A stretch of DNA of 35,083 bases from Actinomycetota bacterium. Its GTDB lineage: Bacteria > Actinomycetota > Acidimicrobiia > Acidimicrobiales > JAMDDE01. The stretch is from assembly GCA_023489235.1 (NCBI GenBank), contig JAMDDE010000027.1, positions 1 through 35,083 on the forward strand, given 5' to 3'. Numbering within the stretch: position 1 is the first letter of the stretch; each line of letters starts with the position of its first letter. Of the stretch, positions 30,314 through 35,041 are shown one piece after another. Both the position numbers and the translations under genes were made by a program. The notes below the pieces were generated by a model that saw only the letters and a program-made list of their open reading frames with translations, ran no database searches and was not told the origin of the DNA.

Positions 30314-30419
30314 GTTAGTTCTATTCTAGAGCAGATTTTCAGAAGGATACCTTGACTGACCACGGTGTTTGCAGAGATAGCCCGTTCGATACGTTCAGCT
30401 GTCACCGAGGCAGTTGGTT

Positions 30420-32186
30420 ATGGCCTATTCTCTGCTCATGGGAAATGAATCATCGGAAGGTTCCGCAGCAGTCTCCAGTGTCGCATCGAGTGGATCAGAA
30501 GTGGCAACCAAGGTATCCTTGAAGATCCGTAGCAAAGAGGTAACTGAAGGTGCGGAGCGAGCTCCAGCTAGGGCAATGCTTCGTGCAGTGGGCATGGGAG
30601 ATGATGACTGGGACAAGCCACAGGTAGCCGTAGCTTCCTCCTGGAACGAGGTCACTCCTTGCAATCTCCCTCTGGCCAATCTTGCCAGACAAGCCAAGGC
30701 AGGAGTCAGAGCAGCAGGTGGCTTTCCCTTTGAGTTCGTAACCATTGCAGTATCCGATGGGATCTCCATGGGGCATGAAGGTATGAGGGCGTCTCTTCCT
30801 AGTCGAGAGATCATTTGTGACTCCGTGGAGACCATGATGCATGCCGAGCGTTTCGATGGCTTTGTTGGGCTAGCCGGTTGCGACAAGTCGCTTCCTGGCA
30901 TGCTCATGGCAGCAGCTAGAGTGAATCTTCCATCCGTCTTTCTCTACGGAGGAACCATACTGCCTGGACGTCTCAAGGACCAAGCGTTGGACATCGTGAC
31001 CGTGTTCGAAGCTGTGGGGGCACATGCCTCGGGACTCATAAGCGACGATGAGCTGGTGTCCATAGAGCGCAACGCTTGCCCTACTCCTGGATCCTGCGCA
31101 GGGATGTTCACGGCCAATACCATGGCCTCCGTTGCCGAGGCTCTAGGTATGTCCTTGCCTGCTGGTGCAACCGCTCCAGCTGTGGACCGACGCAGGGAAG
31201 ATTTGGCTTATGAGTCAGGGAAAGCAGTTGTAGGGCTACTAGCCTCAGGTATAAGACCTCGTGACATTATGACCAAGGAGGCATTCTACAACGCAATAGC
31301 TGTAGTCATGGCTTTAGGAGGTTCGACCAACGCCGTACTCCATCTTCTTGCTATAGCTCATGAGGCAAGGGTGGATTTGGATCTGTCTGACTTCGATCGC
31401 ATTGGGCGTAAGGTACCTCATTTGGCCGATATGAAGCCTCATGGTCTGTACCATATGAGCGACCTGGACAGGGTAGGAGGAGTACCAGTGGTAATGGCAG
31501 AGTTGGCTAGTGCTGGTCTACTGAATTTGGACTGTATAACCGTTACCGGCCGTACAGTGGGAGAGAATCTCTCGTCTATCCAGCCGCCTGCTCCAGACGG
31601 TTCCGTTGTTCACCCCCTCTCCAACCCCATCCATTTGGATGGCGGAATAGCCATCTTGAAGGGTTCGTTTGCACCTAATGGTTCCGTAGTGAAAGTAGCT
31701 GGCATTGACCAGACGTACTTCGAGGGAGTGGCAAGAGTGTTCGATGGAGAGGATGGTGCCATGCAGGCAATCCTTTCTGGGAGCATCAAGCCGGGTACCG
31801 TTGTGGTCATTCGTTACGAAGGACCTAAAGGGGGACCGGGGATGCGCGAGATGCTGGCTGTAACAGGTGCGATGAAAGGAGCTGGCCGGGGAGAGGACTG
31901 TGCTTTGGTGACCGATGGTCGTTTTTCGGGGGGGACTCACGGTTTATGTATTGGGCATGTTGCCCCAGAGGCTGTCGATGGTGGGCCCATAGCATTTGTC
32001 GAAGACGGGGACAAGATCGTGATTGATGTAGATAAACGGTCCATAGAGCTGCTCGTCCCAGAGGAGGAACTAACTCGTCGCCGTGCCTCTTGGAAGCTTC
32101 CCGAACCGCGTTACTCAAGCGGCGTCCTGGCCAAGTATGCTCGCTTGGTTACCGGATCGGATATGGGAGCAGTGACTCTGCCCTAG
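30420..32186 (+). CDS. ilvD: Dihydroxy-acid dehydratase (ORF track starts at 30414)
   Basis: [64 protein letters not shown]. Confidence 0.96.
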
Positions 32187-32209
32187 AGGCTAGGCGTCTT
32201 GCATGCGGC

Positions 32210-32238
32210 TTGCATGCGCCGGCTGAGTATGAGACAAT
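32210..32238 (+). promoter_or_regulatory. Candidate promoter for the ilv leader/ilvBN
   Basis: TTGCAT (32210-32215), 17-nt spacer, GACAAT (32233-32238). Predicted TSS would fall near 32245-32248, essentially at the leader ATG. By-eye match. Confidence 0.4.
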
Positions 32239-32247
32239 ATCTTCACT

Positions 32248-32334
32248 ATGAGTAATATGACGAGAATAGCTACCTCAACCGCAAAGTCTTCCGCGTATTC
32301 CGTGACGGCTATTCTCGTAGTAGTAGTAACCTGA
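32248..32334 (+). CDS. Candidate ilv operon leader (attenuator) peptide, 28 aa: MSNMTRIATSTAKSSAYSVTAILVVVVT
   Basis: ATG at 32248 in frame to TGA at 32332-32334. Run GCT ATT CTC GTA GTA GTA GTA ACC just before the stop; sits between ilvD and ilvB and is followed by hairpins. Confidence 0.8.
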   Translation: MSNMTRIATSTAKSSAYSVTAILVVVVT

Positions 32335-32361
32335 GCGCGCAGCTATCCGCTGTGCGCTCAC

Positions 32362-32393
32362 TGACCTCCCGAATGGGAGGTCATTCTATTTTA
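32362..32393 (+). terminator. Candidate intrinsic terminator of the ilv attenuator
   Basis: TGACCTCCC-GAAT-GGGAGGTCA (9-bp perfect stem, 4-nt loop, 32362-32383) followed by TTCTATTTTA (T tract interrupted). Confidence 0.65.
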
Positions 32394-32672
32394 TGGGCTT
32401 TATGGGCCGGGATTCACGACTACTCCAAACTCCAAGCAGTGCCGACGGTGAAGAAAGGTGTCAACAGCGATCCCTGCTCTTTGGAATAGTTGGTTTTAAG
32501 TGGATAGAGGTGAACAGAGATCACGGAGCTAGAGAAGAGCTGCCAAGTCTTTTCAGCTCGAGTGCACGGAGAGATTAGGAGACTGTGACGAAGCGAATCG
32601 AGGACAGAGGATCAGATCGAAACGGATTTTAGAGAAGATTAGAGATTAGAAAGGATTGAAAGGATAAGGAGC

Positions 32673-34415
32673 ATGACTATGAGATTGACAGGAGCACAAG
32701 CACTCATCAAGAGCTTGGAACAAGAGGGAGTCGAGGTTATCTTTGGTCTTCCCGGGGGAGCTATTTTGCCAGTCTATGATCCAATCATAGACTCGCATAT
32801 CCGTCATATCCTGGTACGACATGAACAAGGTGCAGGACATGCGGGAGAAGGTTATGCACATGTCACCGGGAAACCTGGAGTGGTGATGGTGACCAGTGGG
32901 CCTGCCGCTACGAATATGGTTACAGCATTAGCAGATGCCTATATGGATTCAGTGCCTCTTGTCTGCATCACAGGTCAGGTAGCTACTCCCTCTATAGGCA
33001 CCGATGCCTTCCAGGAAGCTGACATCACGGGTATCACTATGGGGGTTACCAAGCACAACTGGTTGGTAACTCGGTCCGAGGACATTCCTAGAGTAGTGGC
33101 AGAGGCCTTTTATGTGGCCACAACGGGTAGGCCGGGGCCCGTGCTGATAGACGTTCCAAAGGATGTATCCAACGGGATGTTGGAGTGGTATTGGCCGGAG
33201 GATATTGATCTTCCCGGTTATCATCCACCTTCTGCACCAGATCAGTCCCTTGTCGCAAGAGCAGCAAGGTTAATAATAACCGCTGAGCGTCCAGTTATAT
33301 ACGCTGGAGGTGGAGTTTTGAGATCCGAAGCTTCCCATGCTTTGGTGAGGCTTGCCGAGCTGACGGGTATACCTGTGGTCACTACCCTTACTGCGAGAGG
33401 GGTTATTCCCGATGAACATAGGTTGTGCTTGGGTATGCCAGGTATGCATGGAAACTATACGGCAGTGACTGCAATGCAACGGTCCGATCTGCTCATTGCA
33501 TTGGGAGCAAGATTTGATGATCGGGTCACCGGCAAGGTGAGTGCCTTTGCCCCCGGTGCGAAAGTAATCCATGTTGATGTGGATCCAGCCGAGCTGGGCA
33601 AGATACGGCAGGCGGATGTGCCTATAGCCGCTGATTGTCGATTAGCCATCGAAGCTATTCATGAGGCGCTTGTTGCAGATGGCGTGGGTGGACCCAACAG
33701 CCCGCAGTCGGATTTGTCTCCATGGATCGAGCAGATCCGCAAATGGCAGAGAGATTTCCCTTTGACCTATGAGCGGGAGTCGGGTGATGGGGTGGTAAAA
33801 CCCCAGTATGTCATCGAATCCTTGCGGGAGCATACTCCAGACGACACTATTTTGGTTGCGGGCGTTGGTCAGCACCAGATGTGGGCTTCGCAATACTGGC
33901 GCTTCCGTTATCCGCATACTTGGGTCAACTCTGCTGGCTTGGGTACCATGGGTTTTGCTGTTCCTGCAAGCATAGGTGCCAAAGTGGGAAAGCCGTCTGC
34001 CATGGTTTGGGCGGTAGATGGAGATGGTTCTTTCCAAATGACCGCGCAGGAGCTGGTAACAGCAAGTTCGGAAGGGATACCAGTAAAGATTGCTATTTTG
34101 AACAATGCCTATCTGGGCATGGTGCGGCAGTGGCAGGAGATGTTTTACGACGAACGTTACTCCGAAGTATACCTCTCGCCTGATCTGCCTGATTATGTTG
34201 GATGGGCAGAGGCGATGGGTTGTGTAGGCATGCGGGTCACCTCCATGGAAGAGGTTGTGCCAGCTATCGAGAAAGCTAACGAGATAGACGACAGGCCAGT
34301 AGTAATTGACTTCAGGACTGATGTCATGGAGAAGGTTTATCCCATGGTCCCAGCTGGATCCTCCAATGATGACATAATCGTTTATCCGGGGCAGAGGAGA
34401 GAGGAAGATCAATGA
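32673..34415 (+). CDS. ilvB: Acetolactate synthase large subunit (start may be the ATG at 32679)
   Basis: [70 protein letters not shown]-terminal ThDP motif [39 protein letters not shown]. Confidence 0.96.
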
Positions 34416-35041
34416 TGAGCTCGATGAGTTCAACCGATTTGGGTGGCGAGCCAGGATCCACCCTCTCCTCTCTGTTCTCCGAAGGAACGGTTAGAGAGGG
34501 AAATGGTGCTGGCTACCAGAACGGTCATCCCCACATATTAACCGTACTCGTAGAGAACAAGGCTGGTGTTTTGGCCCGTATCGCTTCTCTCTTTGCACGC
34601 AGAGGTTTCAATATATTTTCTCTGGCGGTAGCCCCTACGGAGGATTCTAGGTTCAGTAGAGTGAGCATGGTGGTTGATCTGGCCTCTGCTCCCTTGGAGC
34701 AAATAGTCAAACAATTGGACAAACTCATAAACGTGGTGAGCATATCCGAATTGGATCCCGCTGAGGCAGTTCAAGCTGAGTTGGCACTGATCAGCGTTAA
34801 TGCATCACCCCAAGTGAGAGGTCAGGTCATAGAGCTCGCAGGGATCTTTGGCGCCAAAATTGTCGATGTAGGTCATGAATGTCTTACTGTTATGCTGGCT
34901 GGTGATCCAAGCCAGGTGGACGCCTTTCGCGACCTGATTGCTCCTTATGGGATAGTGGGGGTACAGCGCACCGGTAGTATTGCATTGCCCAAGGCAAATA
35001 AGAGCCTGCCCGATGTAAGTTCAAGACAATCCATTGCGTAG
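34412..35041 (+). CDS. ilvN: Acetolactate synthase small regulatory subunit
   Basis: ACT domain [53 protein letters not shown] overlap with the ilvB stop. Confidence 0.95.

Follow-up and report, generated by a model that had tools for sequence, protein, structure and literature searches.

How transcription passes from a short leader into the acetolactate synthase genes is the question raised by the region between ilvD and ilvB in the window, the whole 35,083-nucleotide stretch of DNA that was analysed. The preliminary description of this region had proposed a branched-chain amino acid attenuator, and had suspected that the classic switch between alternative hairpins is absent. All features given below lie on the forward strand. 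The neighbouring genes were identified by NCBIfam profile matches. Upstream is ilvD, encoding dihydroxy-acid dehydratase (30414-32186; TIGR00110, 763 bits). Downstream, and the proposed targets of the control, are ilvB, encoding the acetolactate synthase large subunit (32673-34415; NF005860, 899 bits; TIGR00118, 757 bits), and ilvN, encoding the small subunit (34412-35041; NF008864, 181.5 bits). The genome of 2.17 Mb, in 80 contigs, is the sole member of its family in the genome collection; the nearest relatives of its IlvB protein belong to Acidimicrobiales, which puts the window in the class Acidimicrobiia, and the genomes compared were mostly MAGs.

A leader peptide carries codons for the products of the operon

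An ORF of 28 codons, MSNMTRIATSTAKSSAYSVTAILVVVVT followed by a stop, occupies positions 32248-32334 and ends in AILVVVVT, exactly as the preliminary description had read it. Its regulatory codons, ATT CTC GTA GTA GTA GTA (Ile-Leu-Val4; 32311-32328), end one codon ahead of the stop. This is a leader of the ilv type, a short ORF with codons for the amino acids that its own operon produces. The codons are retained among 217 related loci, where Ile, Leu and Val account for 93, 99, 92 and 85% of codons -5, -4, -3 and -2; in shifted frames they account for no more than 13% at these positions. GTA stands at codon -4 in 178 of the 217 loci; 179 have TAG as their stop codon, the window having TGA. GTA makes up 67% of the Val codons in the leaders of relatives vs 4.3% in their ilvB genes; in the window genome's own genes GTA accounts for 24% of Val codons and is not rare, a point against the attenuator reading.

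Upstream of the ORF we noticed a putative promoter (32210-32238), TTGCAT (32210-32215) and GACAAT (32233-32238) separated by 17 nt, a weak match ending 9 nt ahead of the leader ATG; this candidate was absent from the output of a strict promoter scan. In relatives, TANNNT lies 5-9 nt ahead of an in-frame ATG or GTG 35 times, vs 4 and 4 times in the other frames, a spacing which suggests that the leader mRNAs are leaderless. Judged from these sequences, the leader is apparently transcribed from a promoter of its own into a leaderless mRNA, and control of readthrough from ilvD therefore seems to be a side effect at most. The preliminary description had included such control beside that of ilvBN; ilvBN stands as the proposed target, and the ilvD part is demoted, ilvD being upstream in just 57 of 136 relatives.

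Two adjacent hairpins are conserved together with the codons

Three inverted repeats in series, followed by a T-rich tract, had been described for this region, and all are present. Hairpin 1, within the leader ORF (32260-32318), has arms at 32260-32270 and 32308-32318 that form 11 perfect base pairs. The second repeat, here denoted hairpin A and proposed to be the antiterminator (32332-32360), has arms at 32332-32343 and 32349-32360 (12 bp, one of them G-U) and is opened by the leader stop codon TGA, on which its first base lies. The third, denoted terminator T (32362-32393), reads TGACCTCCC GAAT GGGAGGTCA, with arms at 32362-32370 and 32375-32383 (9 bp), and continues into TTCTATTTTA, the U-rich tract at 32384-32393. 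A gap of 1 nt separates hairpin A from terminator T, and they share no bases. Folding of positions 32240-32400 with RNAfold, which the preliminary description had recommended, gave -63.4 kcal/mol (z = -5.46), with 0 of 200 dinucleotide shuffles as stable. A terminator scan of positions 32000-32700 found T as the sole site, and sequence and covariation together predict an intrinsic terminator between the leader and the first gene. The Rfam 15 families (riboswitches, T-box and leader families) gave no gathering-score match in the window or in 15 related loci.

Conservation of the whole element was monitored with a covariance model of the codons, hairpin A and terminator T (model R2), built from 28 relatives with the window excluded and the loops trimmed. 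A first model (R1), based on a plain MAFFT alignment, had retained the T stem alone and was replaced by R2. With no window sequence in the model, R2 matches positions 32308-32391 of the window with 44.8 bits (E = 1.6e-8). It also matches 90 of 100 ilvB loci, 28 of these being its own seeds, as well as 305 of 398 Acidimicrobiales genomes. In a phylum-wide sample of 398, matches outside Acidimicrobiia occur in 30 genomes from seven families, and most of the sampled phylum has no match. The gene directly downstream on the same strand is ilvB in 210 of 218 distinct elements, at a median distance of 62 nt (5-95% range 21-252 nt) and with no conserved start codon. In the window the distance is filled by about 280 nt of purine-rich DNA (32394-32672), far longer than the median of the relatives.

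The preliminary description had asked for an alignment of related regions, and this shows that the Ile/Leu/Val codon runs are kept along with compensatory changes in both hairpins. In the alignments of relatives, which were fitted to the structure and are to that extent biased in its favour, both sides have changed in 13 of 15 pairs of hairpin A and 12 of 15 pairs of terminator T. Cells with changes on both sides number 115 and 117, where shuffles give about 20, and none of 500 shuffles came as high. Slid-alignment controls gave far lower values. Compensatory changes affect 7 of 7 modelled pairs of hairpin A in the relatives, and are found in the T stem too. The layout is equally regular: of 217 loci, 193 have a hairpin A that starts 1-2 nt inside the stop codon, 204 have a terminator T that starts 0-4 nt past hairpin A, and just 3 show an overlap of at least 3 nt with both hairpins maximally extended. 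Hairpin 1 is lineage-specific and lies outside this conserved element; the leader fold has z = -2.6 in the window and a mean of -0.18 in 215 relatives, so that the hairpin described earlier is real in the window sequence but was dropped as a working part, leader folding in the relatives being at chance.

Within the ilvB elements, the inner T stem CCTCCC/GGGAGG is almost invariant across the order, beyond what pairing requires. At the other CCTCCC..GGGAGG sites in the window genome no T-rich tail follows the stem, and none of them is an obvious terminator. Such conservation would suit a reading in which T is not a terminator at all and acts instead as a repressor operator, being a near-perfect palindrome, or as a Shine-Dalgarno-like element affecting translation. 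We regard this as very unlikely, since T runs into a U-rich tract, ilvB lies at a variable distance with no start codon conserved, and the elements found before leuA, leuB and cimA (see below) use other T sequences.

Modelled ribosomes switch hairpin A and leave the terminator unchanged

We modelled ribosome footprints by masking positions -15 to +12 around the A-site codon, a footprint size that was assumed, and computed the remaining pairing. In the relatives and the window, hairpin A has a pairing probability of 0.00 with the ribosome on the stop codon and about 0.99-1.0 with the ribosome stalled at codon -4 or -5. Terminator T pairs with a probability of about 0.98 in every modelled ribosome state, the window included. 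Codon -4, which is the best conserved, is the last stall position that leaves hairpin A whole. Folding with masked 5' segments, as had been suggested, thus yields a hairpin that depends on the position of the ribosome, hairpin A, and a terminator that does not.

A classical attenuator would make its terminator conditional by pairing one of the T arms elsewhere. To follow such sequestration, transcripts were ended after the T loop, and E. coli trpL and hisL served as positive controls. Upon stalling, sequestration of the 5' arm of the terminator rose from 0.05 to 0.71 in trpL and from 0.01 to 0.64 in hisL, whereas the T 5' arm of the element was not sequestered (0.41 to 0.36; window, 0.07 to 0.13). 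A swap test of 217 loci detected no coevolved pairing, either of hairpin A with the T 3' arm (z = +0.67) or of the leader with the T 3' arm (z = -0.92), and was null among 59 variant terminators as well. Pairing of the A loop with the T 3' arm had shown early promise, which was gone once the 217 loci were tested. An antiterminator that shares terminator bases, in the manner of the 2:3 and 3:4 pairings, was thus recovered in both controls and not in the element. On the suspected absence of this classic switch, the swap, footprint and sequestration tests agree.

It could still be argued that a weak, irregular or pseudoknotted pairing with a T arm, for example between the A loop and the T 3' arm, was overlooked and that the attenuator is classical after all. 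For both the A region and the leader, pairing with the T 3' arm is somewhat stronger than in shuffled sequences (mean z about -0.55), a few loci (L070, L057 and L064) offer good matches to this arm, and pairing of a hairpin loop with the terminator 3' arm has a precedent in the proposal for Corynebacterium ilvB-II (PMC10272879). Given that no coevolution appeared among 217 loci and that the T 5' arm did not respond to stalling as it does in trpL and hisL, we consider an overlooked pairing unlikely. In the modelled states it is hairpin A that the ribosome switches, and A and T have no bases in common.

The leader codons change with the downstream gene

A model of hairpin A and terminator T alone (model R3) matches 224 of 249 genomes. 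The leader ends in IIII before the citramalate synthase gene cimA (L331, L332, L249 and L250), in IVII or VIII before leuB-type genes (L339, L347, L349 and L355) and in LLL(L) before leuA and leuS (leuS in L348). When loci were chosen by gene, 22 of 28 leuA loci had a leader with a Leu run, a hairpin A that starts at the stop codon and, 0-5 nt further on, a terminator T, with A and T sequences unlike those of the ilvB version; the leuB and cimA versions likewise use other T sequences. For cimA chosen by gene, a leader was present within 1.5 kb in just 1 of 30 loci, the Ile-type leader being commoner before leuB. In the window's own genome R3 gave no second copy above noise; a search by gene revealed one before leuA (L447:1223-1358, contig C44), where the leader MPYNRCLVVGIDILNEQSVLLLT ends in SVLLLT, a TAGAAT box precedes its ATG by 6 nt, hairpin A starts from the TGA stop and T follows with a gap of 0. 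Codon identity tracks the product of the downstream gene, and this is the strongest sign, among the sequence comparisons, that the leader codons are the sensor.

Some model matches fall outside this pattern. One lies before a prephenate dehydratase-like frame, with a leader ending VLLIT (L258), and another before an isocitrate lyase-like frame, with a leader lacking an Ile/Leu/Val run (L269); both are possibly chance. Two further loci (L085, CAMBEL010000003.1; L106, CAMDLX010000002.1) are labelled Bifidobacterium breve and carry an acidimicrobial-looking IlvB and leader; they are probably mislabelled.

The change of codons also bears on the simplest account of the region, that the two hairpins are nothing more than a double-hairpin terminator at the end of the ilvD transcript and the ORF is there by chance. 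T is a good predicted intrinsic terminator lying 176 nt past the ilvD stop, as this account would have it. The in-frame Ile/Leu/Val codons of 85-99% of relatives, the spacing from promoter to start, the presence of ilvD in only 57 of 136 relatives and the switch of codons to Leu before leuA and to Ile before cimA refute it unless the leader codons are irrelevant, and we judge it extremely unlikely.

A proposed mechanism for attenuation by an abutting hairpin

The computed features of the element are its codons, hairpin A, terminator T, their spacing and conservation, the gating of A but not of T, and the match between codons and downstream gene. From these we infer termination in vivo, its response to amino acid supply and the way in which A stops T: the region is probably a ribosome-mediated attenuator of ilvBN, in which a ribosome-gated hairpin A abuts terminator T and acts as the antiterminator. 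The original reading, a branched-chain amino acid attenuator with a leader peptide and a terminator, thus gains codon, covariation and phylogenetic evidence, all of it from sequence comparison.

A short, probably leaderless transcript would begin just ahead of the leader ORF. With ample Ile, Leu and Val, the ribosome would reach the stop codon and its footprint would cover the 5' arm of hairpin A; with A blocked, terminator T would form and transcription would end near position 32390. Scarcity of charged tRNA would instead stall the ribosome on the Ile, Leu or Val codons, above all on the GTA at codon -4, with its front edge just short of the stop, so that hairpin A could form beside the emerging T and RNA polymerase would read through into ilvBN. 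Since A and T share no bases and lie 1 nt apart, we propose that A, abutting the base of T, would get in the way of the closing pairs of T as they zip into the RNA exit channel. In an operon for biosynthesis, the control has the right sign only if A prevents termination, and hindrance at the base of T would be the simplest way to achieve this. The scheme predicts that hairpin A would form in the absence of translation and give readthrough, the opposite of trp. We found no paper showing that termination is inhibited by a hairpin that merely abuts the terminator.

Alternatively, hairpin A could make RNA polymerase pause and wait for the ribosome, which would melt the hairpin on arrival; the kinetics of coupling, and not A itself, would then decide termination. 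The position and timing of A resemble those of the trp 1:2 pause hairpin, and A is disrupted exactly when the ribosome arrives on the stop. With T free in all states, though, a pause alone would not set starved cells apart from fed ones, and a ribosome that follows more closely would make termination less frequent in the fed state, which is the wrong sign. We therefore hold a pausing role to be distinctly improbable, and retain hairpin A as the proposed antiterminator.

A wider claim, which we advance tentatively and with somewhat less than even confidence, is that Acidimicrobiales and other actinobacteria attenuate transcription without base-pair competition, through steric block by an abutting hairpin, and that one stop-anchored module is reused with Ile/Leu/Val, Leu or Ile codons as a general amino-acid sensor. 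If true, a neighbouring hairpin alone could defeat an intrinsic terminator, and the element would be a clean natural test of this. It would also explain why overlapping antiterminators have gone unrecognised in some actinobacterial ilv leaders. The compact rules of the element (regulatory codons, one codon, stop, hairpin, 0-4 nt, terminator) would allow new sensors to be found by sight.

Comparison with known attenuators

Attenuation by leader peptides with branched-chain amino acid codons was predicted for Corynebacterium, Mycobacterium and Streptomyces (PMC1262725) and proven by experiment for C. glutamicum ilvBNC (PMC11857589) and M. tuberculosis ilvB1 (PMC13236596). Among open-licence papers we found no report of such attenuation in Acidimicrobiia, to which the present element would extend it.

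In E. coli trp and his, as proposed here, the position of the ribosome on the leader peptide determines the choice of hairpin, but their antiterminators share bases with the terminator and hairpin A in the window does not. The closest precedent is the three-hairpin attenuator of C. glutamicum ilvBNC, proven by mutation, which has a leaderless branched-chain leader (MTIIRLVVVTARRLP), GTA among its control codons and adjacent terminator and antiterminator bases (PMC11857589). There, a GCC trinucleotide considered essential is common to terminator and antiterminator, and an anti-antiterminator hairpin precedes them (PMC11857589). The element described here has no such boundary overlap, the window having a 1-nt gap, an overlap of at least 3 nt occurring in 3 of 217 loci and hairpin A starting on the stop codon; nor does it have a comparable upstream hairpin, hairpin 1 being lineage-specific and leader folding in the relatives being at chance.

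The Corynebacterium ilvB-II motif likewise places an uORF rich in Ile, Leu and Val codons, and a terminator, upstream of ilvB (PMC10272879). In that motif the uORF spans P1, and the antiterminator forms between the loop of P1 and the 3' side of P2 (PMC10272879), whereas hairpin A starts at the stop codon, downstream of the regulatory codons, enclosing no uORF, and no such loop pairing coevolves here. M. tuberculosis ilvB1 has LVVI codons including GUA and a terminated leader transcript, and its induction disappears once these codons are replaced by Ala codons; the authors draw a mutually exclusive terminator and antiterminator (PMC13236596), and it is by this description that we set it apart. 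The LEU element of actinobacterial leuA is a pseudoknot in which Leu codons pair with the leuA Shine-Dalgarno sequence (PMC1262725); the leuA loci described here instead have a stop-anchored hairpin A and a predicted intrinsic terminator.

Streptomyces ilvL (L421; leader MRTRILVLGKRVG; PMC8079986) also has a leaderless Ile/Leu/Val leader and, when folded here, it and two similar loci (L419 and L424) show a stall-dependent hairpin 0-3 nt from the terminator. It differs in that the Ile/Leu/Val run lies 5 codons ahead of the stop and the 5' arm of the hairpin falls within leader codons. In L421, L419 and L424 the conserved codons after the run (KRVG, QRVG and KRVAP) are the 5' arm of the hairpin that abuts the terminator; conservation of the peptide after the Ile/Leu/Val run in actinomycete-type ilv leaders may thus be conservation of RNA. 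Because these three loci also fold with a gap of 0-3 nt, abutment may, as far as the folding models go, be a general actinobacterial plan, of which the stop-anchored form would be the leanest version.
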